Shown: positions 9,876 to 39,602 of the stretch, piece after piece | Layout: the number at the start of each line of letters is the position of its first letter | Position numbering within the stretch: position 1 is the first letter of the stretch | Source: a virus | Length of the DNA: 39,602 nt | Virus record (IMG/VR): IMGVR_UViG_3300032397_000036 | Location: 1 to 39,602 of that record | Strand: one strand, 5' to 3' | The notes under the pieces: model-generated | Seen by the model: the letters and a program-made list of their open reading frames with translations, nothing else | Told to the model about the DNA's origin: nothing | The model's database searches: none | Made by a program: the position numbers and the translations under genes

Positions 9876-9908
9876 AAAGGGCGGGGGCTTCTGGCTCCCG
9901 CCCTTTTC
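9876..9908. terminator. Bidirectional terminator hairpin
   Basis: A GC-rich inverted repeat pairs GGGCGGGGGC (9879-9888) with the complementary CCCGCCC side (9898-9904), a loop of about nine bases between them. On the plus strand it is followed by TTTTCT and would end the DUF1360 pair. On the minus strand it follows the tape-measure stop at once. The convergent position fits a shared terminator; the T-run is better on the plus strand. Confidence 0.75.
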
Positions 9909-12900
9909 TATGCGTGCATCGCGCGACCTTGGATCTGCGCGCCAACCTGAGCTGCAACCACGTGCGGGTTTGTAGCATTGGAATGCACGTGCAGGTTCTC
10001 GATGGTGACTCCCGACTTGCCGCTACCATTCTTTTCCATCTGCTTGAGCATGCGATTCAAGTTGCTATTAGAAATAATCTCGCCCTTGTTGCCGAAGCTG
10101 CGTAGCTCTGGCCCCTTCTCTCCGACCAGATATGTACCGCTCTCATGTGCTCCGCCATACGCGCGCCCGCCCTTCACCTTCCCCTTGAGTATTTCTTGGA
10201 TGAATTGCAGCGTCTTTGGATCGCCGACGTGTACGTGCGAGTAATGCGCAGCCTTCAGTCCAGCATTTCCGATTTCAGTCCATGGACCGCCGCCGAATGA
10301 CTCTCCTAGTGGAGAGTAGATAAGTTGCTTTGGCTTGAACCACTTGCGGGCAAGCTCTGCGAATCCCATCATGTTCTTCTTTGGCCCGGCAACGTCTAGC
10401 GCTATTCCCTTATAGTGATCTGAGATATTTCCGGTTGTCGTGTACTTGTCATGGTGGAACTTTCCGGCAGATACATTCAGTCCAGATTCCTTGGCTGTTG
10501 CGCCAACTGGCCCCATTTGCAGACGATTGGCTCCATCCAGATTCATGGTAGCTGCGAGAAGGGCAGTCTTTCCGAGAGGGAATGGGAATCCAGCCGTATT
10601 GGTATCTGCAGATCCAGTTTCAGCTTGGTATTGCTTCAGGTACTTGAGTACGTTCGTAACATAGTTCTGAGTCTCTTTGTATGGTGGAATTCCGCCATAC
10701 TTGTCAACCGCATTTGGCCCGGCATTGTAAGCGGCTACGGATTCCTTGATATTTCCGCCGAAGTGCGCGAGCAACTGACTCAGGTACTTGGCTGTACCCA
10801 TGACGTTCTGCGCTGGATCGAAGGAATTAGTTACTCCAAGGCTGCGCGCAGTTGCGGGCATGAGCTGGCCAAGACCCTGCGCCCCGGCACCTGATTGCGC
10901 CTTTGGATCGAATCCAGACTCTGCCTTGATGATGCTTCCGAGTAGGAGCGGATCAATCTTGAACTTCTTTGCCTGCGCATTGATTAGCTTTGCAAACTTA
11001 CCCTTGAATGCTCCATCGCCGCCGCCGCCTCCACCGCCGAGAACGCCGCTCAGTGAATCAGTGATAGATCCTGCGATGGAAGCGGTTAGGGAAGTAATCT
11101 GAGAAGCAGTGCTCTTGATGAACGACATGACTACTGACCATCCAGCTCGCAGCCCGTCGAGTAGACCGCCCATGATGGCGTTTCCGTGCGGCCTAAGCAA
11201 CGCAGCATCTGCGGTAATCGGCCCCTTGTTTCGGGCAATCCATGGAGCTACACTGTGGATGAACTTGGTAACGTCACGATTCCATACCGTCTTCATTCCC
11301 TGCTGCAAACCAAGCATGATCGCTTCGCCGTGCGGCGTCATGCGATTCGTGAGAACTAGCGTTCCGCCAAGACCCTCTGGAATCTTCCTTCCAAGAGCTG
11401 CGAGATATGGCTTGGTCGTGCCAGTCCATTGCGCCTGCACTCCATCAGTGAATCCGACTACCAGAGCCTTTCCGTTGGGCATTGCGGCCTGCCCGAGCTG
11501 CGCGCTCAGATTCTTCGACTTCTCAATGAGCTGCGCGTGCAATGCATCGAATCTTGCAACCACGCCATTCTTACGCGGGTCGGTGACTGGATTTCCGTCT
11601 GCGTCTACCGCCTCGAACTTGACTGGAATCTTGACTTGCCCGGCAGCGGCTAGCGAAGCATTCGCCTGATCCTGCAACTGCTTGAGCTGTTCCGCTGATA
11701 TCTGACCAGAAGCGAATGCATCCTGCGCACGCTTCAGGAGGTCGCCCATCTGCGTTGTCAGGAAACCGCCTACGGCTCCTGCACCCTGCGTTGATGCTAC
11801 TCCCTTGGCAGCGTCACCAATCGCGCTGAGAGCGCCTGAGAGAGCGTCTAGGTTCTCGCGTGCGCGTGCAGTATCAGATCCAGCAAGCGTTCCAATGTTC
11901 TGGCGCAGTTTTCCAAATAGCTCGTCAAGACTGCTGGTGATCGCTCCCTGCGCCTTGAGTGGATCAAGATTTCCAATCAGGGACTGCGTGATCTGATCGC
12001 CGAAGTCAGATACGTCCTGCTTCGCCTTTGTTACCGCACGCGATACGGCCTCGAAGTAATCCTTGAGCGCGTTCTTGCGACCAAGTTCATTCTTCTTGAT
12101 TTCGGAAACCGTAGTCTTCAGAGCTGACTTGATCTTGTCTTGAGCTGATTGAGCCGCCCTTGCGGAAGCCTGCATGTTCTTTTCGCGCTCGCGCTGTTGC
12201 TTATCGCGAAGTGACTTAGCCTTCTTCTCTGCCTTCTCGTCAAGCACGCCAAGACCAGATAGCATCTTCTCGCGGTCGCTGATAATGCGATGCGCTCCGG
12301 GATCGCGGCCGTTGATTCCCGGTCCTTGGATCGCTCCCTTACCATTGATTAGTGGACCCTGCAATGGAGCAATCTTCAGGTTATTCAGCGAATTGAATGC
12401 CTTGTCGAATGAACCAGTGAGAAGTTCTGCCTCTCCCCTGATTGCCTGAATTCCATTGATAAATGCAGGAACTACTCCAAGCGTGAAGTCGTTGGCCGCA
12501 TTCTTGATTACATTTCCTGCGCGATGCCAAGCCCTGCGCCATCGTCCATTGAGGATGTCGATGATTATTTTGAGGGTTCCGTCGAGAATCCTGAGCGGAA
12601 TAGTGGCAACCTTGATTCCCTTTGCTACTACCCATCCCATGGCACGGAAGATTCCACCAATAGCGCCGCCCTTGTGACTCAGCTTGGTGAGCGCTGCAAT
12701 GAGATTGAATACATCGCCAACAATGCTTATCAGGGTGCCAGCAGTAGACTTCAGCGCATCGCGAAGTGACTGGCTATTCTTTATCATTTCAAATAGGACT
12801 ACTGCGATTGCCCCAACTGCTCCAGCAGCAGCGAGGCTTCTAACTCCAATCGTTTCCATGATTCCAGCTATTCCGCCGCGCTCTCCAAGAGCTTCTATCA

Positions 12901-15046
12901 GCGGCTTCGCGAATCGCAGAACCTGCTGCAGCGGAAGAATGATTACCCTGATTGCGAAAACTGCGGCCGTAAGCTCAAGCCAAGCCTTGGCAGATGCGAG
13001 AATGATCTTCTCGTTATCATGCATGAACTTTGCGAGCTGACCAAGAGCCTGCCCAACCTTGGGGAATACGCTTGCCGAAGCATCCCCGATGCGCGTCAAG
13101 AGAAGGCCGAATGCCTCTCCGGTAGACATGTTCTTTCCGCCGAATGCTTCGGAGAACGCCTTCCCGAATCCAGCGATACCCTTGAATGTTCCTACAGCAA
13201 GATCCTTGATTCCCTTTCCTAGAGCGATGAATCCCGGTCCATTGACGAATCCAATCAGAACATCGGTGAGCTTGCCAAGCTCGTTTCCGAGTCCCATGAA
13301 CGCAGACTGGGCAATCTTGGCGAGCTTGCTTCCCTGATTGAAGCTAGAGAAGAACTGCGCCAGCTTTGCTCCGGGAACCTTTCCTGCTTCGACCATGAAG
13401 GAGTTGAGCGCATCGCGGAAGTTCTGGAATACTGCGGCAAGACTTGTCTGCTGAAGTCCTGCAATCTGCGCGGTAAGTCCCTTTGACTGCTCAAGTTGCT
13501 TGACAATCCCAGAGAGGTTCGTCTTTCCTTCTGCGAGGATTAGCGCACGCAATCCCTGCGTAGACCTATCGGTAAGATCGAGAGCCTTGAAGAGCTTGAC
13601 CTGATCGCGTGGATTGAGGGAATCAAACTTCCTCTTGAAGTCTGCGATGATGTCGCCGAACTCGCGATAGTTGCCAGCGGCATCGAACACCGCCAGTCCC
13701 ATCCTCTTCCAGTCCTTCTCGTTTGCGCCGCCCTTGGTGAAAATCTCCCGCGCGGTAATACCTGCCTGCTGACCAGCCTTCAGTCCCTTGATTCCAACCG
13801 TGGAAAACTGCTGCAACGTAGCGATAGTAGTTTCAACGCTCTGCCCAAACTGCGTGAATGAAACCGCTGCGCGATTGCCCAATGCTTGCGTAAGATCCTG
13901 TAGCGTGCTCAGAGAACGCACGTTGGCGTTCGTCAGGATATCAGTGAGCTTGGTAATGTTCTTCTGCTTGGTTGCAAAGTCTCCATAGTTCAAACCAAGA
14001 GCATTGAATGATGCAAGCAATCCTTCCGTAGCATCCTGCAGATCGAACTGACCAGCCTGAGCGAACTTGCTGATCTGCGGCAGTAGTGCGAGTGAATCAG
14101 CGGCTGATTCACCGGCAGATGCTAGGTAGTAGTATCCGTCTGCGGCTTCCTTGGCGCTGAAGATGGTCGTCTTCGCGATTGCCTGCGCTCCTTCGATGAA
14201 TTGCAGCTTTGCGTCATCAAACGTCTTCCTAGCCTCAGATAGCGTCCTTCCGCCGATCAGATCGGTTCCACCAATCAGCGAAGCTGCATTCGTTGCAGAT
14301 TGCTCAAGTTCGCCAAATGACTTGACCGCAGATACGCCAATTGCAGTCGTTGCTGCGACGATGGCAACCGTCGTCAATCCCCAAGCTAGGCCGATGTTCT
14401 TGAATGCGCGCTTGCTGACAACTTCCAGCCTAGAGAACGCGCCTACTGCACGCGAGATATCTGCGTCGATGAATGCCTTGATTGGCTTCAGGAAGATTAG
14501 CTGCATGCGCTCGCGAGCTGCGATTGCATCCTTCTCTGCATCTACGACAAGTGGAGCCTTATCAACCTTGACAACCAATCCAACTGGATCTGCGTTGACA
14601 ATTGCGGCAGCTTCCTTGACGGCAAGCTTGATGTTCTTGGCTAGCTTGTTCTTCGACTTCTGGCTGACATTGAAGTTGGTATTGGTTAGCTTGAACTCAC
14701 CTTCCATCTTCGATGCTTCTTTGATGGTATTCCTGATTGAGTTGAAGATTGTCTTCTGAGACTTCTTACTCAGATTGAACAATGCTCCGGTAATCAGGTA
14801 TTCCTTCTTCTCCCTGCCAGCCTCCGCAATGGTATTCGTGATTGACTTATTCAGGCTAGCCTTAGCCTTGGGCGAAAGGGTGATCTTGGGAGATATTTCA
14901 ATCTCCTTGATTTCCTTGCCTAGACCCTTCTTGTCAAGCACTGGCTTGACCTTGACGGAAATGGCTGGAAGCGCCTCAATCTGCTTTATCAGCAGCTCGG
15001 TATCAGCGTTGAGGACTATTCGTGCTTCGCCTACAATTTCACTCAT
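9908..15046 (-). CDS. Tail tape measure protein with SLT and M15-like domains
   Basis: At 1712 residues this is the tape measure, setting tail length and carrying wall-degrading domains. Residues about 50-160 hold three imperfect 30-40 residue repeats. The TP901-type region follows (AATTAIGVSAVKSFGELEQS). Long helical and hydrophobic parts fill the middle. After a GGGGGG linker near residue 1340 comes a soluble lytic transglycosylase domain (IIKAESGFDP, GAQGLGQLMP, AAYNAGP) to about 1465. A second peptidase-like domain has SDHYKGIALDV (near 1545) and HYSHVHVG (near 1604), the zinc-site pattern of M15 peptidases. I see no cysteine in the whole protein. The -10 box six bases before the ATG suggests leaderless expression. 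Confidence 0.93.
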   Translation of the reverse strand: MSEIVGEARIVLNADTELLIKQIEALPAISVKVKPVLDKKGLGKEIKEIEISPKITLSPKAKASLNKSITNTIAEAGREKKEYLITGALFNLSKKSQKTIFNSIRNTIKEASKMEGEFKLTNTNFNVSQKSKNKLAKNIKLAVKEAAAIVNADPVGLVVKVDKAPLVVDAEKDAIAARERMQLIFLKPIKAFIDADISRAVGAFSRLEVVSKRAFKNIGLAWGLTTVAIVAATTAIGVSAVKSFGELEQSATNAASLIGGTDLIGGRTLSEARKTFDDAKLQFIEGAQAIAKTTIFSAKEAADGYYYLASAGESAADSLALLPQISKFAQAGQFDLQDATEGLLASFNALGLNYGDFATKQKNITKLTDILTNANVRSLSTLQDLTQALGNRAAVSFTQFGQSVETTIATLQQFSTVGIKGLKAGQQAGITAREIFTKGGANEKDWKRMGLAVFDAAGNYREFGDIIADFKRKFDSLNPRDQVKLFKALDLTDRSTQGLRALILAEGKTNLSGIVKQLEQSKGLTAQIAGLQQTSLAAVFQNFRDALNSFMVEAGKVPGAKLAQFFSSFNQGSKLAKIAQSAFMGLGNELGKLTDVLIGFVNGPGFIALGKGIKDLAVGTFKGIAGFGKAFSEAFGGKNMSTGEAFGLLLTRIGDASASVFPKVGQALGQLAKFMHDNEKIILASAKAWLELTAAVFAIRVIILPLQQVLRFAKPLIEALGERGGIAGIMETIGVRSLAAAGAVGAIAVVLFEMIKNSQSLRDALKSTAGTLISIVGDVFNLIAALTKLSHKGGAIGGIFRAMGWVVAKGIKVATIPLRILDGTLKIIIDILNGRWRRAWHRAGNVIKNAANDFTLGVVPAFINGIQAIRGEAELLTGSFDKAFNSLNNLKIAPLQGPLINGKGAIQGPGINGRDPGAHRIISDREKMLSGLGVLDEKAEKKAKSLRDKQQREREKNMQASARAAQSAQDKIKSALKTTVSEIKKNELGRKNALKDYFEAVSRAVTKAKQDVSDFGDQITQSLIGNLDPLKAQGAITSSLDELFGKLRQNIGTLAGSDTARARENLDALSGALSAIGDAAKGVASTQGAGAVGGFLTTQMGDLLKRAQDAFASGQISAEQLKQLQDQANASLAAAGQVKIPVKFEAVDADGNPVTDPRKNGVVARFDALHAQLIEKSKNLSAQLGQAAMPNGKALVVGFTDGVQAQWTGTTKPYLAALGRKIPEGLGGTLVLTNRMTPHGEAIMLGLQQGMKTVWNRDVTKFIHSVAPWIARNKGPITADAALLRPHGNAIMGGLLDGLRAGWSVVMSFIKSTASQITSLTASIAGSITDSLSGVLGGGGGGGDGAFKGKFAKLINAQAKKFKIDPLLLGSIIKAESGFDPKAQSGAGAQGLGQLMPATARSLGVTNSFDPAQNVMGTAKYLSQLLAHFGGNIKESVAAYNAGPNAVDKYGGIPPYKETQNYVTNVLKYLKQYQAETGSADTNTAGFPFPLGKTALLAATMNLDGANRLQMGPVGATAKESGLNVSAGKFHHDKYTTTGNISDHYKGIALDVAGPKKNMMGFAELARKWFKPKQLIYSPLGESFGGGPWTEIGNAGLKAAHYSHVHVGDPKTLQFIQEILKGKVKGGRAYGGAHESGTYLVGEKGPELRSFGNKGEIISNSNLNRMLKQMEKNGSGKSGVTIENLHVHSNATNPHVVAAQVGAQIQGRAMHA

Positions 15047-21168: not shown

Positions 21169-21316
21169 TGGCAGCATTCCTAGCTGCGATTTCAGCATCG
21201 AGAACCGCCATTGCGGCTACGGCATCTTCCCTATTCGTGTAGAGCACTCCATCAACTAGCCATGACTGACTCTGGTAGTCAGTTCCCGGCTCTCTTCCAT
21301 ACTCGTCAAGTGTCAT
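21161..21316 (-). CDS. Small hypothetical protein, 51 aa
   Basis: This short ORF (MTLDEYGREPGTDYQSQSWL, then a TNREDAVAAMAVLDAEIAA helix) fills the gap between two larger genes. Its stop overlaps the next ATG by eight bases, as at many other junctions here. A GGTATTCC stretch precedes the ATG; no strong Shine-Dalgarno sequence is seen. Function unknown. Confidence 0.5.
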   Translation of the reverse strand: MTLDEYGREPGTDYQSQSWLVDGVLYTNREDAVAAMAVLDAEIAARNAAND

Positions 21317-21326
21317 AAGGAATACC

Positions 21327-22448
21327 TCAAGAATAGGTCATATTGAGTACTACATTGTTCACTGCTGGATTCCCGGTATCAGCATCTGCGATTCCGGTTG
21401 TCGCCCTAACGCCAATTCCAGCAGCGAATAGTGCTCCACTCGTCAAGTCGATTGACACTCCCGTCTGCCCGCCTCCGGTAGTGCCATCAAGCGGGATGGT
21501 CATAACAGGAGTATCTGCAGCAGTAGGAGCAGTTGCCTTATTATACAGCTTCAAGAACCTCTCTGCGGTGGCTCTATTGGTTGCAATGATGTCAATAACA
21601 ACTCCACTCGAAGCCTTGATGTTCACGCCAGTAGCGTTCACATCTAGGTTGCGATATGCAGAAGCACCTACAGGCGCTCCAACGCTCAGGGTTCCATCTA
21701 CGGTAATGCTACCGCCAAGATCACTAATCCCAACTCGTCCAGCAGAATCAGTTGAAATCTGGGAGTAGTCGCCATCTGTAGATGTTACTACTGCGGCAGC
21801 ATCATTTCGCACGCCAAGAACGAAACCGCCTCGATCACCGGAAGCCGCAGGAGCATCCTCAAGCTTGGTTGGATCGTTGGTGATTCCAACCGTTCCGCTT
21901 ACAGGAAGAGCAGACTGGTTGGAAGCGAATACGACTGGCATGCTAGCAGCCATCGTAGTCTGACCAAGAGCCGCAGGAATTCCAGCGTCAATACTAGCGA
22001 GAGAAGTGTTGCCTGTTGTCTGCAATGCAGACGTTGCGAATCCCGTGATCGCAGCAGGAGGGGTCAGGGTAATGATCTGAGCCGCTGTAAGGACTACTGG
22101 AACAGATGCAGCGGCAAGCGCCTGCCCAAGCGCAGGAGTCTTCGTATCAATAGATGCGAGGCTAGTGTTGCCAGTCGTCTGGAGAGCTGAAGTGGCAGCA
22201 CCAGTCGGAAGGGGAAGAGTCGCAGCGGTAATCGCAAGCGGAGCAGTCAGCTTTGAGTCGATGCTGGCGAGAGAAGTGTTGCCAGTTGTCTGCAGCGCAG
22301 CAGTCGATACTCCTGCAACTGATACCGGAACAGCGCTCGCGCGAAGCTGGGCATCCGTCAGAAACGGGCCAGTTACCGCCTGAGAAACTGGGAAGTTTGA
22401 GACTGCAATGGAATCATCTGAGCCTTGCCCAAGGCCAATTCCAGACAT
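21327..22448 (-). CDS. Repeat-bearing fibre or appendage protein
   Basis: This 373-residue protein is likely a virion fibre or head appendage. Residues 50-160 contain three copies of ALQTTGNTSLASID separated by proline-rich spacers with SVPVV or LPLP. The sequence MAASMPVVFASNQSALPVSG that follows is typical of a widespread family of phage appendage proteins with the same 'LASID' repeats. It then has a GDYSQISTDSAGR block shared with the next upstream gene, and a beta-rich C-terminus. Its ATG overlaps the upstream stop (TGATG). Confidence 0.7.
   Translation of the reverse strand: MSGIGLGQGSDDSIAVSNFPVSQAVTGPFLTDAQLRASAVPVSVAGVSTAALQTTGNTSLASIDSKLTAPLAITAATLPLPTGAATSALQTTGNTSLASIDTKTPALGQALAAASVPVVLTAAQIITLTPPAAITGFATSALQTTGNTSLASIDAGIPAALGQTTMAASMPVVFASNQSALPVSGTVGITNDPTKLEDAPAASGDRGGFVLGVRNDAAAVVTSTDGDYSQISTDSAGRVGISDLGGSITVDGTLSVGAPVGASAYRNLDVNATGVNIKASSGVVIDIIATNRATAERFLKLYNKATAPTAADTPVMTIPLDGTTGGGQTGVSIDLTSGALFAAGIGVRATTGIADADTGNPAVNNVVLNMTYS
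21987..22298 (-). repeat. Three ALQTTGNTSLASID-coding repeats
   Basis: Near-identical 42-base units occur at 22298-22257, 22187-22146 and 22028-21987 (minus strand). The peptide is fully conserved while several third codon positions differ, so the repeat is held at protein level. The unit probably forms a strand-turn of a trimeric fibre. Confidence 0.85.
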
Positions 22449-23016: not shown

Positions 23017-23844
23017 CTAACACACCTTCGCAAGCGCGGCGAATACGCAGCACGAATCAAATCGCACAATCGCAGGCCGCTCGGCAACTACATAGACGGT
23101 ATTCTGGCGAGCCATATCGCCCTTCATTGACTCAGCTACTCCATACGTTCGCACTTCAGCGAATGCGTACTCAACTGGAGTAGTAGCGTAGATCCATACA
23201 TCTGCATCAGATGCAACTGTATTCAAAGGATCTGCGTCGGTAGGAGCTTGGTTCGTGTATCCAGCGTCGAATACGACAGTATGATGACCAAGCTTATAGA
23301 CTCCGTTTGTCAGAGTCAGCTCGGTATTCGTGAGGAATGAAGGCAGCGCCCAAGCCGGGGCATGGAAGGTGATATCTCCCGAGTATCCACATGCAACCAT
23401 TGCATGGATCAGACCAAGAATAGTCTGCGGAACCTCATTTGGAGTTACGGGTGATACATCAACAGCGGTCGAAAGAAGGTCTGGATTCACTCCGTTGTAG
23501 GAACTATTCAGCTCCAGAGCAAGTGCAGAAGATTCCTGAGCTGCAAGTCCATTGACTGATCGAGCTTCCCATCCAGCGGGACGAATAGCGAGCGTTCCGC
23601 ATCCCTCTGGGTAGTAGATCACGAACGGCTTGAACGTCTGCACTGCGGGAACTACTGGATCAGACTTCTCCGGTAGCAAATTATCGCAATACAGGAATCG
23701 CTCTGCGGTTCCGCAAGCTTCTGGCAAATACTCAAGACCAGACTCATGTGACCAGTCAACATCGCTCGGCAGCCGAAGGGCAGACTTTACGAGGCTTCCG
23801 GCACTAGGAGCCTTGAGAGCGCCGCTAATACCTAGAGTTCTCAA
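23017..23844 (-). CDS. Capsid-associated structural protein, 275 aa
   Basis: This gene follows the major capsid gene. The TTG start has GGAGGG seven bases upstream. The protein has no domain I can name. It is mixed alpha/beta with VQTFKPFVIYYPEGCGTLAI in the first half, a central LGLIHAMVACGYSGDITFHA, and a C-terminus that ends VCFAAL-like with SCC and a final cysteine. Position and length would suit a minor capsid, vertex or second head protein. Seven cysteines fit the virion-wide trend. Confidence 0.6.
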   Translation of the reverse strand: MRTLGISGALKAPSAGSLVKSALRLPSDVDWSHESGLEYLPEACGTAERFLYCDNLLPEKSDPVVPAVQTFKPFVIYYPEGCGTLAIRPAGWEARSVNGLAAQESSALALELNSSYNGVNPDLLSTAVDVSPVTPNEVPQTILGLIHAMVACGYSGDITFHAPAWALPSFLTNTELTLTNGVYKLGHHTVVFDAGYTNQAPTDADPLNTVASDADVWIYATTPVEYAFAEVRTYGVAESMKGDMARQNTVYVVAERPAIVRFDSCCVFAALAKVC

Positions 23845-23893: not shown

Positions 23894-25516
23894 TTAGCAG
23901 GATCGGGGAGTTACCAGACCTGCGCGAGCACCGTTGGCGCAGAAGTTGTCAACCTTGATAGCGAATGACGGGTTGCAACCAAGCTTCTCAAGCGACTCAA
24001 TGCCCTCCACGAAGTACTGCGCGCGGTTCTGGCGAACCAGAGTTGCGTCACGCTGCACCCCAACATCCACAAGCGGAGCCTGCCCGAGAGCAAAGTCGCC
24101 GGTCGGAATGAGGTAGACATCGAATTCCTGCCGAAGCGCGGGGAGCGCCGCAGCAGGACCGCCAGCGGCGGGGAGCACTGGCGGAACCAGAGTCGATCCG
24201 GTGCGAACGTCGAGAGCTTCGACAACCGTGATCCCGCCAAGTCGAGCAGACAAGGCGAGAGCTGCATTGTCGGGATTCTTGAATCCACGCAGCTCATTGT
24301 CGATGTTCAGCAGCGCGAGCAGGCCGGGCGGAACGATCAGCGTATAGCTGGCGAGATTCAGGCGACCGCCATAGAGCGCGTCACCAAGGGTCGTCCAGAC
24401 TGCATCAACCAGAGCAGATACAGCACCCTGCGAAGGCAGGACCGCAGCGGCGTCATACGTCCACTGGATTGACTGCTGGTAGATGCGCCGCAGAAGCTCG
24501 GCCTCTGCAACGCGAGCGTAAGCGATGCCACCCTTGCGCAAGAAGTCCTGCACCAGAGCTGGATTGCTGAAGTTCTGGAAGGTGCCGAAGCTACCACAGA
24601 ACACAACTGCGTAGACCTCTGCATTGATGTCCGGCGAGCAAGCCATGTCAACGCAAGGCTTCCACGTTGCCGAATCGCCGGGATCGACAGCAAGATCGTC
24701 TGCCTCTGACCAAGAAGTTGCGCCAGCAAGCACGTCGGTAAGGCTAACTCCACGAATGTAGCGGAATTCGCCCTCAATCGGCATGCGCTGGAAGAGCGCT
24801 TCGACTGGTCGAGCAGCAGTACCGCACTGCACGACATCCTTGATCGTGTCGCCGGGGCCGCAGAATCCGCCAGAAGCAGTCTTTGCCGCCATCTGCAGAT
24901 CCATGAACCGGCGCAGGTTATCCTGCCCGCTTGCACTGGAGCTGAAGCTGTGTGAGAAGTCCTTGGGGAACAGCTCAACCTTGTCGAGAATGCGAGTGGC
25001 ATACGAATCGCCACCAGTCGGCTTGAGCGAAGTCAGGCCAGTGAATTCTCGCGAGTAACGCGCAAGATCCAGCTCTGGAGCCTCTGCCTTGGCCTTAGCC
25101 TTGGGCTGGCGATGCGTTGCAAAGTTGGAAAGATCAACCTTGCGGCTAGCTGCATGAGTTGCTGCATCTGCATCTGCGTCAGCGTCAGCGTCAGCGTCGG
25201 CATCCTCGTCTGCATCATCGGCGTCAGCGTCGGCGTCGGCGTCAGCCTCGTCCTCGTCATCAGTCGCGAAGGCAGCGGCAAGAGTCTCAGTCTCTGCAGC
25301 AAGCGCCTCTGCCTCTGCAGAAAGCTCTGCGATTCGAGCAGTCAGCTCTTCGCGAGAAGCTGCGAGCTTACGCAGCGCCTCAAGCTTCTCTGCGCTATCG
25401 GCAGCCTGCGCAACGCGGCGGCCAGCCTCAACAATCTTGTCAAGCCACTCAGTCGAATCCGCAAGCGAAAGGCTTGCAACATCCTCTGGCAGTTCAAGAA
25501 TCTGATCTTCCGGCAC
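23894..25516 (-). CDS. Major capsid protein with fused scaffold-like N-terminus
   Basis: This 540-residue protein is very likely the HK97-fold capsid subunit: it follows the protease and carries LTSLKPTGGDSYATRILDKV and later LNIDNELRGFKNPDNAALAL, VYLIPTGDFALG and an end with NPSFAIKVDN. Residues 1-120 are scaffold-like: a long acidic coiled coil rich in A, E and L, then a repetitive Asp-Ala tract (about residues 85-122). This part is probably removed by the protease. The GTG at 25516 with GGAGG five bases upstream is chosen over the GTG at 25528. Codon use is biased, as for abundant proteins. Confidence 0.85.
   Translation of the reverse strand: MPEDQILELPEDVASLSLADSTEWLDKIVEAGRRVAQAADSAEKLEALRKLAASREELTARIAELSAEAEALAAETETLAAAFATDDEDEADADADADADDADEDADADADADADADAATHAASRKVDLSNFATHRQPKAKAKAEAPELDLARYSREFTGLTSLKPTGGDSYATRILDKVELFPKDFSHSFSSSASGQDNLRRFMDLQMAAKTASGGFCGPGDTIKDVVQCGTAARPVEALFQRMPIEGEFRYIRGVSLTDVLAGATSWSEADDLAVDPGDSATWKPCVDMACSPDINAEVYAVVFCGSFGTFQNFSNPALVQDFLRKGGIAYARVAEAELLRRIYQQSIQWTYDAAAVLPSQGAVSALVDAVWTTLGDALYGGRLNLASYTLIVPPGLLALLNIDNELRGFKNPDNAALALSARLGGITVVEALDVRTGSTLVPPVLPAAGGPAAALPALRQEFDVYLIPTGDFALGQAPLVDVGVQRDATLVRQNRAQYFVEGIESLEKLGCNPSFAIKVDNFCANGARAGLVTPRSC
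25160..25258 (-). repeat. Asp-Ala repeat tract in capsid gene
   Basis: Roughly thirty-five codons alternate GAC/GAT with GCA/GCC, giving (DA)n with a few Glu. The DNA is a GCGTCA/GCATCT-type microsatellite and may vary in length by slippage. In the protein it gives a very acidic linker between the scaffold-like helix and the capsid domain. Confidence 0.85.
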
Positions 25517-25555
25517 GTCATCCTCCACGATGAACTTGGTTCATAACCTTACTAC

Positions 25556-27535: not shown

Positions 27536-27901
27536 ATGAAGCTTGCGGTAGTCGGAAGTAGGGATTTTCCATATCTATGGATGGTTGGCGAAATTCTCGC
27601 AAGGATGCGAATTACTGTTGAAATAGTCAGTGGAGGCGCGCGTGGCGTTGATACGATTGCCAGCAATTGGGCTAGGTATCACGAAATGAGTGAAAAGATA
27701 TTCCTTCCAGATTGGGATAGATTTGGAAAATCTGCTGGATATAGACGAAATACGGAGATAGTTGATTACTGCGATGAACTTATTGCATTTCAGTTCAACA
27801 AGAGTCGCGGAACGCAACATTCAATTGATCTAGCTAGGAAAGCTGGAAAGCTGCGAGAAGTGATTGAGGTTACTAGACAGGAATATGAGGCCGTGCAATG
27901 A
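27536..27901 (+). CDS. SLOG (YpsA/DprA-like) nucleotide-binding protein
   Basis: This 121-residue Rossmann-like protein belongs to the SLOG superfamily (DUF2493/YspA type): MKLAVVGSRDFP at the start, then VEIVSGGARGVDTIASNWA, the glycine-rich ligand loop, then IFLPDWDRFGKSAGYRRNTE, IVDYCDELIAFQF and a GTQHSIDLARKAGK end. SLOG proteins bind nucleotide ligands, and some act in phage defence or anti-defence signalling; in phages their role is generally unknown. An alternative start is GTG at 27527. It converges with and overlaps the portal gene's 3' end by 29 bases. Confidence 0.8.
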   Translation: MKLAVVGSRDFPYLWMVGEILARMRITVEIVSGGARGVDTIASNWARYHEMSEKIFLPDWDRFGKSAGYRRNTEIVDYCDELIAFQFNKSRGTQHSIDLARKAGKLREVIEVTRQEYEAVQ

Positions 27902-30005
27902 TGCGGCACTGGCAGCCATGATGGTCGCCGGGGAACCATGGCAGCGTAGGATTCACTTCTCCCTCGCGCCAAGTCTCACCCTGCAGCACGACATGATCTG
28001 GGAATGGATACGTGGGATGACCGCGCTCCCAGATGAATTCAAGTCCTAGCCGCATTCCAGTTGCGCGCGCAACCATTTCCAGCCAGATAAGGTCTGCATT
28101 CCAGTTCTGCACGGGCTGATCCGTCTTCGAGAGGCTTGGATTCCATTCAGCGGCTGCGCCGCCAGCGGCGATTGCCATGACTGCGAGCGAAGCTACTGGC
28201 GGAACGTAATCTGACGGAACCGCAGATCCATCTGGATTGAGCAGTGATTCGCGATGCGCCCTACCAGCGAGCAGGTCTGCGATGTAGGATGTCGAGTAGG
28301 AGGCGGCGTCTGCGATTGCTCCCCCTCGCACGCGCAGGTACTCTAGGATCTGCTCTTCAGTTGATCCGCTAGCATGCATTCGGTCCCTAGCGCCCCGTAG
28401 GAGTAGCGTAAGGATGATTGCGCCGATTCCGGTATCGCGGGCAGCATCGCCCGCATTCTGGTCTTGCGTGGCATCTGCGGTCTTGACGCCATCAAGCGTA
28501 ACGCCAGCAAGCGTTACAGCCTTCGTTGCGGCTCTACGCATTTCTGAAAGCACTTGCTCATACAGAGCGCCTTCGATGCGCGCTACCTCGTTGAACCATT
28601 CTGGAGCTGCGGAAGCAGCCTTGACGGCTGGCGGCGTGTCTCCAGTAGTGCGGGTAGGCGGCTCAGTTGTATCTGCCTTTGGCTGCACGTACTCTGGCCC
28701 ACTACCGGGATCTTGAGCTGGATTGAATTCATCCGTGGCCCAATCGACGGGCATATCCAGACCCTCAAGCGTGGCCTGAGCAGTGATAGCTCCCAGCTCA
28801 TACAGGCGCAGGATAGTAGGCGTGTTATCAGGCTTCGATACTACGTTCCTGCCATTTGGATTGATTGCATAGAGCTGCGCATCTGCAACTTTCGCCTGCA
28901 CAAGCTTGGGAATCAGCCATGCCTCTGAGATTGCGTCTGCAATCTGGAATGCCATCGGCGCAAGGTGGTAAGTCCACGTATTCTGGTCTACCTTCCATGA
29001 GGACCAGTGATTCGAGTCTGCGATTCCCGTAACGACTTCTGCGGGTAGGTCAACGCCAGTCGCATAGCGGAGTCGATATGCCGCCATGCGAGCTGCATAG
29101 GCATCTGCGTTGTCCTCACGATCCAGCAGTAGGTGCTTGAGGCCATTCGCATTAGCTGCGGCCCCATACATCTTGAGCGGAGAGATAGATTCAGTGCCAG
29201 AGTTATTTGACAGCGCGAGGCGCATAGCCTCGTTCATTTCCTCGTCAAAGGCGCGCACTGTTCCGGGAAGCGGCGGGCCAGTGTTATCGAACGGCTCTGG
29301 CAGGAAGTCATCGTTCGGAATGTAGAGGATGCCAGCGTTGGCTACAACCGACAGAGCGAAAATCTTGTCTGCAATCGTGTGCAGTACCATCGCTTCGAGG
29401 ATATCCAGCATCGCAAGGTGGGATGACCATGCGCTTTGACCATACTCTTGATCTGGCGTCCAGATTCGATAGATTTCCTGACCATCAAGGAGCTTCTGCC
29501 CTGCGTTGCGGGTATTCGCGCTCTCATTGATTACATAGTTACCATCAACAACGTCAAGCTCGCAGATGGAAACGCTGCGCCAGTAGTATTCAGATCCAAT
29601 CGGATTCCAGTAGTTGTACGCAGGCTTTCCCTTGATTGCCTCATATGGAGTAACTACTACATATGCTTCGCCTACAGTGAAGAGCATGCGCGCCAGACGC
29701 CCAGCATCGAGCGTGCGCAGGGAATCAACTAGATCGTCTGCGAGGGGATCTTCTACTGCGTAGAAGTCCTGATCGCGCCAGATGACAGGTTCCCACGTCA
29801 CCCTGCCGATAGCGTTCTCCACGAACTTTCCAGCGCTGGAGACTTCCGGGATCATATTAGAGAAGCGCAGCGTGCGCGCCTGCCAGTCCTTGATCCTCAC
29901 CGCGTAGTTGTCTTTGCTCAGATACTGTGAGGTATCCAGCCTGACCGCGCTGGCGGTCATCCCATTAGTTGGCTCGCGGCGTGCATTGCGTGGGAATAGA
30001 GGCAT
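27873..30005 (-). CDS. Portal protein with MuF-like C-terminal extension
   Basis: At 710 residues this is longer than most siphovirus portals (about 450-550). The first part is portal-like: RTLRFSNMIPEVSSAGKFVE, a FTVGEAYVVV strand, then GVDLPAEVVTG and IADSNHWSSWKVDQNTWTYH, and a C-terminal YVQPKADTTEPP linker near residue 450. The remainder is helical and ends TLPWFPGDHHGCQCRI, close to the 'H...CRCxI' end of MuF/SPP1 gp7-like head morphogenesis domains. So it seems to be a portal-MuF fusion. A -10 box six bases before the ATG suggests a leaderless transcript. No terminase gene stands upstream. Confidence 0.8.
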   Translation of the reverse strand: MPLFPRNARREPTNGMTASAVRLDTSQYLSKDNYAVRIKDWQARTLRFSNMIPEVSSAGKFVENAIGRVTWEPVIWRDQDFYAVEDPLADDLVDSLRTLDAGRLARMLFTVGEAYVVVTPYEAIKGKPAYNYWNPIGSEYYWRSVSICELDVVDGNYVINESANTRNAGQKLLDGQEIYRIWTPDQEYGQSAWSSHLAMLDILEAMVLHTIADKIFALSVVANAGILYIPNDDFLPEPFDNTGPPLPGTVRAFDEEMNEAMRLALSNNSGTESISPLKMYGAAANANGLKHLLLDREDNADAYAARMAAYRLRYATGVDLPAEVVTGIADSNHWSSWKVDQNTWTYHLAPMAFQIADAISEAWLIPKLVQAKVADAQLYAINPNGRNVVSKPDNTPTILRLYELGAITAQATLEGLDMPVDWATDEFNPAQDPGSGPEYVQPKADTTEPPTRTTGDTPPAVKAASAAPEWFNEVARIEGALYEQVLSEMRRAATKAVTLAGVTLDGVKTADATQDQNAGDAARDTGIGAIILTLLLRGARDRMHASGSTEEQILEYLRVRGGAIADAASYSTSYIADLLAGRAHRESLLNPDGSAVPSDYVPPVASLAVMAIAAGGAAAEWNPSLSKTDQPVQNWNADLIWLEMVARATGMRLGLEFIWERGHPTYPFPDHVVLQGETWREGEVNPTLPWFPGDHHGCQCRIIARPHIPV

Positions 30006-36364: not shown

Positions 36365-36758
36365 TTTCGGCCCCTCCAAACGAGCGAATAGCGGCATGCG
36401 TCACGTCCTGCAGCGTGGTCAGCCGTTCGCGCCATCCATCCCCAGATATCAGGTCGCAGACCATCTGCACCAGCTCCGGGCACTCCCCCTCATACGCGCA
36501 CGCGAGTACAACCGAGAAACCAGACATGCGCCACGCTAGGTTCAGATCGCTTTCAGCTTCTGGGTATGCGTCAGCTATCGCAGCTCCCAGATGCGTGTAC
36601 CCAAAGTGCTCAGATACCTTATCCAGCAGTGAACGGCAGTGCTCCTGCCCCTCGCGGCTCCAGTAGTGCGCCCTGCATGGCCCTAGCCGCTCCCGATCAT
36701 GCGCGTGCATGTACTGATACCAGAAATCTATTTGTGCATTGATATCAAGCCGATTCAA
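36342..36758 (-). CDS. Hypothetical protein, 138 aa
   Basis: TTG start at 36758 with AAGGA seven bases upstream, overlapping the end of the first gene of the block. The sequence is mixed, with aromatic residues near the start (INAQIDFWYQYMHAHDRERL) and a helix with cysteines (SVVLACAYEGECPELVQMVC). I recognise no family. Its place just behind the 217-residue gene suggests joint function. Confidence 0.55.
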   Translation of the reverse strand: MNRLDINAQIDFWYQYMHAHDRERLGPCRAHYWSREGQEHCRSLLDKVSEHFGYTHLGAAIADAYPEAESDLNLAWRMSGFSVVLACAYEGECPELVQMVCDLISGDGWRERLTTLQDVTHAAIRSFGGAESGAAPAE

Positions 36759-37398
36759 AAGTCAATCCTTCCAGCAGATTGCGCTCCAGCTCCGGGCGTA
36801 CCTTCGGTCGAGCTGCATCCTTGCGCCCCTCAAGCACGTTGAAGAATCCGGTGAATCCCGGAATCATTCCCGCAGATACCATCTTCATGGCGAAGTTCGC
36901 AGCTCCAACCTCAGTGAGATTGAACGCAGATCCAGCCATGAAGAAGTCTGGCCTAGTGAGCAGATAGTGATTCATAGTCTCGCGATACGTTGCGTACTTG
37001 TCGCGAGGCCAAGTATTCATAATCGCCAGCATCGCCCCGGCCTGCTCTACCCGCACCGGCACGATATCCTCCTGATCTGCGCGAATCAGGATACTCACGC
37101 AGCGAGAAGGTTGGCCAGTGAGCTGATTGGCGATGCGATTGATTTCAGCTACATAGAGTGACATGAGCGGCGTGCAGTCTATTGGCAAGTCACGCCAAGA
37201 GAAATACTTGTTCCAGCCCCACCAGTCATACAGCTTCTGCCGCATGTTGTACTTATGGTCACGATCCAATCCATAGTACGCAGCCTCGAACTGCATACGC
37301 TTCAATGAATGGTCGTCATCTACCCTGCGCATCGTCTGACGCGGAAGGTGGTTTCGCTTATACGAACCGTTGTCATCACCTACAAAAAAACCTAGCAA
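36745..37398 (-). CDS. Hypothetical protein, first gene of leftward block, 217 aa
   Basis: This is the first leftward gene after the intergenic region. TTG start at 37398 with a GGGGGGAT stretch ahead of it; an ATG at about residue 23 is an alternative. The protein is alpha-rich (DHSLKRMQFEAAYYGLDRDH, LPIDCTPLMSLYVAEINRIA) with a hydrophobic stretch near 165-185 (NFAMKMVSAGMIPGFTGFF) that is probably not a true membrane helix. I recognise no family; it is not similar to a terminase. Confidence 0.6.
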   Translation of the reverse strand: MLGFFVGDDNGSYKRNHLPRQTMRRVDDDHSLKRMQFEAAYYGLDRDHKYNMRQKLYDWWGWNKYFSWRDLPIDCTPLMSLYVAEINRIANQLTGQPSRCVSILIRADQEDIVPVRVEQAGAMLAIMNTWPRDKYATYRETMNHYLLTRPDFFMAGSAFNLTEVGAANFAMKMVSAGMIPGFTGFFNVLEGRKDAARPKVRPELERNLLEGLTFESA

Positions 37399-37439
37399 GA
37401 TAATCCCCCCGGATCAGCTATTTGCAACGCCTGTAGACC

Positions 37440-38110
37440 GCTCTTTGCAATACTATACACACTTCCTGAATGCACTCCAGTAGTTCACGTTTCGCATTGA
37501 TTGTGAACTAGAAGTCATCAGTTGATCGCGCAAGCATAGCAGGTTTCTTGATAAGCTATTAGAACATACGTTGGCTCAGGCGAAAGCTTCCAACGGTCAG
37601 ACCTTGGGGATACGACCAAGGCGAAGTGGACGGGTAGTACTTTTCCACTGGTAGATGCTCTGCGAGCGCCATCCCCGGTAAAAAGGGTGCCTATGGCCGC
37701 GCTACATCCCGCATCAAGGGTGGCGTAGGAGTGACGGGAAGCGCCAGCGTTGACACACGTTTGGTAGCGCGTCTAACACCCGCATCGTATGGGCTAACAC
37801 TCTCAAACATCAAGCAATAACGGATACGTCTGGGGAACAGACATTTAGGCCGATAGATTCACTATCACAGTGATTATTCACTAGATAGTAAATAAGGCGG
37901 ATAGAGTGAAGACCCTGTAGATGCCCGGTCGAGAATACGGCGACAAGTGAACTGTATTCAGCAATCGAACGCTTGAGCCGGTTCCTATGGGAAGGAACTG
38001 AAGATGCTGGCGCACACGGAACTGCGTAGAGTCCCCTCGCGGGTTATCAGCAAGTAGCTTTCTTCCCCTTCGCGCGATACCTCTGTACCAATTCGATCTG
38101 CCTATACACG
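37440..38110 (+). ncRNA. Candidate large structured RNA (orientation provisional)
   Basis: A stretch of about 670 bases without a credible gene is packed with perfect inverted repeats: 37481-37488/37503-37510 (8 bp), 37569-37574/37590-37595 (6 bp, closing an inner helix with a GAAA loop), 37602-37607/37616-37621 (6 bp), 37625-37630/37644-37649 (6 bp), 37698-37705/37764-37771 (8 bp, enclosing 58 bases), 37828-37832/37838-37842 (5 bp), 37861-37866/37884-37889 (6 bp plus an inner 5 bp), 37933-37938/37954-37959 (6 bp) and 37980-37986/37993-37999 (7 bp). That is the look of a large ornate RNA such as GOLLD or ROOL, which occur in phages; I cannot match the consensus from memory. Plus strand is assumed from the GNRA loop and flanking gene direction. 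Confidence 0.45.
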
Positions 38111-38166
38111 TCATGGTGATAGCCCCACATCGTACTGAATACACGTAATGCGTGTATAAGGGGAGG
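38062..38166 (+). promoter_or_regulatory. Leader able to mask a Shine-Dalgarno sequence
   Basis: AAGGGGAGG at 38158-38166, the ribosome site of the small ORF at 38174, is complementary over nine bases to CTTCCCCTT at 38062-38070. A perfect seven-base-pair hairpin (ATACACG, TAATG, CGTGTAT; 38139-38157) directly abuts it. CCTATACACG at 38101-38110 can instead pair with CGTGTATAAGG at 38151-38161, using part of the same bases. The three pairings are partly exclusive, as in a riboswitch expression platform. Confidence 0.5.
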
Positions 38167-38173
38167 CGAAGCT

Positions 38174-38337
38174 ATGTCCACAATCAAGAGAACCTGCTAT
38201 ATGGATACGCTGCACGAATACAAAAAAACTATTTGAGCGGGAAGAAACCAGCTACTACTCAGAGGCATTGGAATTGCCATGAAAGAGCTAGGGCAATCCT
38301 TTCGCAAGTCAAGAAAGAGATTGGTTACTACCGTTGA
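38174..38337 (+). CDS. Small ORF interrupted by an A7 frameshift, about 54 aa
   Basis: After AAGGGGAGG and the ATG at 38174 the reading frame gives MSTIKRTCYMDTLHEYKK and then a stop at 38234. The -1 frame continues from the CAAAAAAAC run (38221-38229) as NYLSGKKPATTQRHWNCHER and ARAILSQVKKEIGYYR to a stop at 38337. Joined, it looks like one normal small protein. Either the A7 run is a programmed -1 slippery site, one A is missing from the sequence, or the gene is decayed. No known family. Confidence 0.5.
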
Positions 38338-38636
38338 ATGGGTTTGCACGTACAGATCACGCAAGCCTCACACGCAATATCAAGAGCGTTCCTGTCTCCG
38401 ACCAACAGTAGTAACTGGTCTTGGCTGCGGCGAGAAAAGGTGTTGATTACCAGCAAAAATGTCTGTGTACCTTGCGCTACTATCCCCTTGCGCGCGCAAC
38501 TACTGGCGGAGATTCCCATTCAAGATTCCCTCTGGTTTTCCTCAAGGCAGTGAGATTTAGACGTGTCTAACTTATGGTTTAGGCTGGATTGAAATGAAAG
38601 TTAGTGCGGGCAGTGTGGGAGCATGCGAGCGCAACT

Positions 38637-38670
38637 ATTGCCGACTCAACGACATGATTGCCGACGCAAC
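38637..38670 (+). repeat. Pair of 14-base direct repeats, 20-base period
   Basis: ATTGCCGAC(T/G)CAAC occurs at 38637-38650 and 38657-38670, differing at one base. Related TGCCGAC and GCCGACGC units follow up to 38700. The 20-base period, about two helical turns, is typical of protein-binding iterons. Confidence 0.6.
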
Positions 38671-38696
38671 TACCTTCCTCAAGCCTGCCGACGCCG

Positions 38697-38710
38697 ACGC
38701 TCGCGAGCGT
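38697..38710. repeat. 14-base perfect palindrome
   Basis: ACGCTCGCGAGCGT reads the same on both strands, directly after the TGCCGAC repeats. It may be an operator or, with the nearby repeats, part of a replication origin. Confidence 0.6.
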
Positions 38711-39020
38711 GCCCCACGATAGAATGCCGATATCCCCTGTAGGGCCACTGTAAGGCCCATAGCGGGCATGCGAGCATTTTCCGGTAGGGTAGCTCCAATT
38801 TCCCGTCGTGTAAGTTCTTACCATATTTGGACGGTATCTGGACAGATTGGTCATAGGTCTGTAAGATTGTTCCAATATGCGTCGGTTTGCAGTCATATAG
38901 GCTTGAAAGATCCCCTAGCTGGGGGATGGTATATCGGCTGTAGCGCGCTACTTGCGTGCGTGCGTCACTCCCCTAGTCTGGAGCGGCATCGAACGTGCGT
39001 TCGGTGAGGCCATATGTATG

Positions 39021-39051
39021 GGCAATCCCTCAAGTATTTTCAGGGATTGCC
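39021..39051 (+). terminator. Ten-base-pair hairpin ahead of rightward genes
   Basis: GGCAATCCCT (39021-39030) and AGGGATTGCC (39042-39051) pair perfectly around an 11-base loop, then GATATTTC follows. It may end transcription entering from the left, or be a leader hairpin for the gene at 39108. The T-run is poor. Confidence 0.5.
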
Positions 39052-39107
39052 GATATTTCAATTGGGTGTTACGTTTGCCCGGTATGTCTAGCTGAAGGAT
39101 ATGTCGC

Positions 39108-39389
39108 ATGACTGATTTACAATATGCAGTGCTGGAGCGTATCCATAGCGGGCAAATCTATTCAATGTGTGACGTGAGTATTCTCGGTTTGACTGCATGG
39201 ACTGACGGAATCTCCATCAATCTGAAGGGCTTGCGAGACATGAAATGGCATGCCATGCGAGCAGGAATAGCCGCTGCAAAAACCGCAGCTAGCAACGTGA
39301 CTAACACTGAGGCGCTGAGAACCACGTATCAGCGGAGTCCAAATTCGGATGGCGCTCGTCGGCGTTCATGCGAGCAGGAGGGTAACTAA
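39108..39389 (+). CDS. Hypothetical protein, 93 aa
   Basis: First gene of the rightward set. AAGGA lies 11 bases ahead of the ATG, a little far. The N-terminus is helical (DLQYAVLERIHSGQIYSMCD) and the C-terminus is basic with low order (PNSDGARRRSCEQEGN). Family unknown. The next gene begins one base after its stop, supporting a real gene pair. Confidence 0.5.
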   Translation: MTDLQYAVLERIHSGQIYSMCDVSILGLTAWTDGISINLKGLRDMKWHAMRAGIAAAKTAASNVTNTEALRTTYQRSPNSDGARRRSCEQEGN

Positions 39390-39390
39390 C

Positions 39391-39602
39391 ATGAACCAGA
39401 TCCATTCACTCAAGGTTGGGCAGAAGGTTATTCGCTCCTGCGATACTCCACGCGGCTATCAGGACGGAATTGTCGTCATGGTCAATGTAGGGGGGACTGG
39501 AGATTTTATTCTGGAATTCAAGTACAGCGACGGAAACATTCAAGCGCGCTATAGCTCAATTTTCGACGCACTGCGCGACGGAATTCGCGATCCATCGTTC
39601 GA
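39391..39602 (+). CDS. Hypothetical small protein (3' partial)
   Basis: This gene runs off the window end. AGGAGGG precedes the ATG at 39391. The visible 70 residues are strand-rich (MNQIHSLKVGQKVIRSCDTP, then GYQDGIVVMVNVGGTGDFIL) and look like a small SH3- or KOW-type barrel. No family can be named from the fragment. Confidence 0.6.
   Translation, partial: MNQIHSLKVGQKVIRSCDTPRGYQDGIVVMVNVGGTGDFILEFKYSDGNIQARYSSIFDALRDGIRDPSF

Follow-up and report, generated by a model that had tools for sequence, protein, structure and literature searches.

The stretch between 37.4 and 38.1 kb of this phage DNA may be a non-coding control region whose structural content lies mainly in one domain of about 270 nt, and we tentatively propose that this domain would act as a structured 5' leader of the late transcript. 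The minus-strand fold of the domain is the stronger and sharper one. The window, i.e., the whole stretch of DNA that was analysed, is an IMG/VR virus record of 39,602 bases, which is linear, has no end repeats and is possibly a fragment. Its late genes lie on the minus strand and run leftwards from 37398, with the tape measure (9908-15046), the capsid protein (23894-25528) and the portal (27873-30005) identified. Plus-strand genes occupy both window ends: the left one (35-1263) encodes a RecB/Cas4-like nuclease and a nucleotide kinase, and the right one has small genes from 39108 onward. The first late-side gene (minus strand, 36745-37398) has a TTG start, encodes 217 aa and carries a coding signal; it matched nothing in PHROGs or Pfam and belongs to no known family. 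Between it and the early genes extends an intergenic stretch with almost no coding signal (37399-39107). A sequence-only reading had placed 37440-38110 at the late/early divergence point, and the region indeed sits between the late (minus) and early (plus) units. No tRNA gene was found in the window, and none of the phage's proteins could be identified as a terminase large subunit. The portal and capsid proteins share at most about 30% identity with any match in the searched collections, and by such comparisons the phage is a lineage without close relatives there.

The absence of a credible gene from 37440-38110, also part of that reading, was confirmed: no frame scored as coding, six-frame scans gave no PHROGs match, and the longest open reading frame (ORF, 87 aa) had no match in Pfam. 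Most of the wider interval of about 37.4-39.1 kb is non-coding as well: codon usage trained on the phage's late genes gave no coding signal in any frame there and six-frame scans against PHROGs no match. Because the codon preferences of early genes may differ, as suggested by the weak score of the likely gene at 39108 with late-gene codon usage, small early genes may be present. A good ribosome-binding site was present in this interval only at a 20-codon ORF at 38174. This short ORF, MSTIKRTCYMDTLHEYKKTI (38174-38295), has a strong GGGGAGG site upstream, and a +1 shift within the A7 run would lengthen it by LFEREETSYYSEALELP; the run may be either a frameshift site or an assembly homopolymer error. 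A 7-bp hairpin, ATACACG-TAATG-CGTGTAT (38139-38157), stands directly before the ribosome-binding site of the ORF. A second TATACACG copy at 38103 could pair (8 bp) with the 3' arm of this hairpin, and the two copies could thereby offer alternative pairings. Further to the right, the non-coding stretch 38489-38673 carries the diverged repeats TGCGCGCGCAACTACTGGCG / TGCGAGCGCAACTATTGCCG and ATTGCCGACTCAACGAC / ATTGCCGACGCAACTAC, possibly origin-like. A perfect 10-bp hairpin, GGCAATCCCT/AGGGATTGCC (39021-39051), precedes the gene at 39108, and the 272-nt window at 38897 reached z -3.9 (plus) and -4.2 (minus).

At least nine helices had been listed for 37440-38110. The hairpins are real, and seven non-overlapping ones with at least six perfect Watson-Crick pairs and a loop of 3-20 nt were counted, against 2.2±1.4 in shuffles (none of 100 had as many). 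The accompanying statement that their density is far above the rest of the window did not hold. Shuffles of the whole window were needed because the region had been picked out of it; a maximum scan of 60 shuffled copies, which takes account of this selection, found stretches with at least eight hairpins per 671 nt in 12 of them. Elsewhere in the window, sliding windows held up to seven hairpins, and one that overlaps the upstream gene held nine; this maximum starts at 36976 and lies half within the gene. When 5-bp or G-U-tolerant hairpins were counted, the region came near the window average and the contrast was gone.

The folding energy of the whole region was likewise ordinary, with z -0.6 on the plus strand and -1.8 on the minus strand (-0.45 and -1.3 in other runs). 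The mean z of 80-nt windows over the region was -0.15 (plus) and -0.6 (minus), and 216 of 390 bins on plus and 59 of 390 on minus had a lower mean local z. Trimming to 37465-38030 gave z -2.1 (plus) and -3.5 (minus), and the domain at 37741-38012 reached -3.65 and -5.2, respectively, none of 200 shuffles being as stable; among 291 windows of 272 nt it ranked fifth on plus and first on minus. These last z values are inflated because the edges of the domain were picked from the fold, and the fairer figure is that of the unselected, overlapping grid frame at 37673, i.e., -2.55 on plus (12th) and -4.2 on minus (4th). By the same test, z was -3.1 for E. coli rnpB, and -2.1 and -1.0 for two pieces of 16S rRNA of 670 nt each; an ssrA control (z -1.2) was not relied on, its coordinates being unconfirmed by the record's annotation. 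The excess in fold stability is real, not extreme, and confined to about 270 nt. Within the coding part of the window, the stretches 21217-21490 and 23121-23392 are also unusually stable whichever strand is folded (z -3.9 to -5.7). Their best values are -5.7 and -4.7, respectively, and z of this size thus arises without an RNA gene. Random sequences also fold plausibly, and single-sequence folding is unable to settle whether an RNA is present (PMC8250186). The predicted structure of 37741-38012 is moderately convincing. Should the domain not be a working RNA, the case would illustrate how readily a gene-free stretch seems ornate to the eye; shuffles, the rest of the window and known RNAs were the yardsticks by which a part of it could be singled out.

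The domain is multi-branched and closed by the helix CGCCAGC/GCTGGCG, which extends to 10-11 bp on the plus strand when G-U pairs count. It folds on either strand and better on minus, as illustrated by z, rank and pair probabilities. On the minus strand, its inner arm (37782-37924) stacks GCATC/GATGC, GGGT/GCCC and CACTCT/AGAGTG with pair probabilities of 0.86-0.98, and opens into a multiloop from which three hairpins branch (of 10+6, 7 and 5 bp). The strongest single hairpin, also on minus, is ATTTACTATC/GATAGTGAAT (37857-37893), made of 10 bp with one G-U and continued by TAGTGA/TCACTG; the 80-nt window at 37841 that covers it reached z -5.2 on minus and -2.7 on plus. Two further hairpins suit the plus strand: CGGTTCCT/AGGAACTG (37979-38000) has 8 bp with one G-U there and 6 bp on minus, and GAATACGG/CTGTATTC (37933-37959) forms on plus only, with a probability of 0.58, other pairs replacing it on minus.

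Outside the domain, three consecutive hairpins of six Watson-Crick pairs each were assigned to the plus strand (37569-37595, 37602-37621 and 37625-37649). They recur in the folds of every context tried, and their local energy is not unusual. The first of them is capped by a GAAA tetraloop and is the GNRA-loop helix already noticed from the letters. The 8-bp helix reported to close 58 bases is present as well, on the plus strand, between CGCGCTAC (37698-37705) and GTAGCGCG (37764-37771); about three such complementary 8-mer pairs per 670 nt are expected by chance on a simple 4^8 estimate. It would make a pseudoknot with the helix that closes the domain, which is the stronger of the two, and is absent from the minimum-free-energy folds. 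Near the left edge, the 8-bp dyad TAGTTCAC-N14-GTGAACTA (37481-37510) could be a hairpin or an operator-like DNA dyad, and the same spaced dyad is carried by six unrelated viral contigs.

Indicators of the transcribed strand disagree. The minus fold of the domain is lower in energy and better in z; its ensemble diversity is 24 vs 42 on plus, and most of its helices have probabilities of 0.8-1.0. The GNRA loop and the G-U extensions of several helices fit the plus strand, on which alone they work. Purines make up 0.55 of the plus strand of the region, compared with 0.52-0.56 in early genes and about 0.50 in the coding strand of late genes. The plus strand implied by the sequence-only reading fits the GNRA hairpin but not the strongest domain, which folds best on minus, and for 37741-38012 we lean toward the minus strand on the basis of the predicted folds. 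A late transcript on this strand would include the domain as a structured 5' leader, separated from the first late gene by about 340 nt. Such a leader would act in cis on the late mRNA, affecting its elongation, stability or translation. From the lack of coding signal, the divergent layout, the above-chance fold and the sharper, stronger minus fold, which were all observed, we infer transcription, its strand and a cis-regulatory role. The divergent layout, the late genes identified on minus and a domain z of -5.2, stronger than those of rnpB and the 16S pieces, count for the late leader. Against it, neither a sigma-70-type promoter nor a terminator was detected nearby, the stability is partly mirrored on plus (z -3.65), six G-U-dependent or GNRA details fit plus, and no homologue was found to provide covariation support.

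The location at the divergence point would also suit a control region at the DNA level, in which a replication origin or operator dyads separate the divergent units and the repeats serve as protein-binding sites. TTCAC/GTGAA occurs six times within 470 nt (37484-37951) vs about 1.2 expected, the next copy lying at 39405, and the copies are possible operator half-sites, arranged in dyads such as the one at 37481-37510. Moreover, stability of the fold on both strands is what palindromic DNA would show, and the adjoining 38.49-38.67 kb contains repeats built on a GCAACTA-type core. However, this motif has just five letters and was spotted after the fact, no iteron array was present, and the nested GCATC/GATGC, GGGT/GCCC and CACTCT/AGAGTG pairings are atypical of operators, which leaves binding sites in DNA a somewhat doubtful explanation. 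A non-coding RNA or early-transcript leader on the plus strand, starting at about 37465, comprising the GAAA-capped and other hairpins and the 270-nt domain and possibly representing a new class, is the idea of the sequence-only reading and would account for the seven 6-bp hairpins vs 2.2 expected, the z of -2.1 for 37465-38030 and -3.65 for the domain, the plus-specific GNRA loop and G-U extensions, and a purine content like that of the early genes. We consider it unlikely, given that z over the whole region is only -0.6 on plus with average local values, that the minus strand folds more strongly and with less ambiguity, and that neither an Rfam match nor a homologue was obtained.

It is also conceivable, though a little less probable still, that no structure has been selected here and that a spacer, noticed for its lack of genes, carries inverted repeats that arose mostly by chance. 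Indeed, 20% of shuffled windows hold an equally hairpin-rich stretch, the energy of the whole region is ordinary, coding parts of the window fold equally or more stably, and plausible folds are common in random sequences (PMC8250186). On the other hand, no shuffle was as stable as 37741-38012 on either strand, and on minus nothing of its size in the window ranks above it. Of low probability, in our view, is a novel type of large structured RNA with several domains and about 270-570 nt, made at the late/early divergence point of an unclassified phage lineage and unrelated to any Rfam family. Should the 270-nt domain prove to function as an RNA, it would be an orphan among structured phage RNAs, with a place in no Rfam family; made from the minus strand, it would be a candidate for switching late gene expression.

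Covariation among homologues is what shows a conserved RNA (PMC8250186, PMC11234323), and relatives were sought in several ways. A blastn search of the region against phages and plasmids yielded no homologue, in collections that may omit records very close to the window. The 217-aa neighbour and the portal, each scanned as a single protein, likewise had no match. An alignment scan with the portal retrieved 38 IMG/VR contigs, all at 30% identity or less; together with Pseudanabaena phage Pam4 and Gordonia and Mycobacterium phages, they carry the nearest portals (about 25-30% identical). Searched with blastn, with nhmmer and with the covariance model R1, which represents the 151-nt inner arm, these portal relatives showed no recognisable copy of the region, a negative outcome of little power. 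Five DNA patterns taken from the region gave no match or chance matches only; the best extension (L108/L135) fell inside a 247-codon open frame and was discarded.

The known families GOLLD and ROOL, which had been put forward as candidates, and likewise HEARO and group I introns were not matched on either strand. No Rfam family reached its gathering score anywhere in the window, and permissive filters with E up to 5 gave no meaningful match in 37300-38300 or 38000-39200; a snoU13 match at E 2.9 was attributed to chance. The group I intron and HEARO models in particular remained silent at both levels. A P3/P7-like pseudoknot and an AAGAU-plus-P7-like string were seen, and a group I intron was nevertheless rejected, as there was no Rfam match, the P7-P3 spacing was wrong and exons were missing. 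To the right of the region, as far as 39.1 kb, no frame of either strand carries an exon-like coding signal; the gene on the left opens with a ribosome-binding-like GGGGGGA ahead of its TTG start. An interrupted gene was dismissed, the far side being without coding signal.

ROOL and GOLLD RNAs occur in phages or prophages, often near a tRNA island. ROOL is a phage-borne RNA of about 570 nt with many helices and pseudoknots (PMC12286853). The region resembles it in being phage-borne, in approximate size and in having several helices and a possible pseudoknot, and differs from it in matching the model (RF03087, gathering score 99.1 bits) on neither strand, even at E up to 5, in the lack of tRNA genes in the window, from a possibly fragmentary contig, and in that the searches gave no homologues from which covariation could be read. 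GOLLD is a large phage-borne RNA of unknown function, often above 800 nt (PMC12286853). As a phage-borne candidate large RNA, the region is comparable to it, but it is without a tRNA island and without a match to the model (RF02032, gathering score 150 bits), the conserved 3' region included. The put sites of HK022 are phage leader RNAs that act in cis on elongation. The domain predicted here is much larger and has no known sequence relation to them; the likeness is that structured RNA ahead of a phage operon would influence the very transcript of which it is part.
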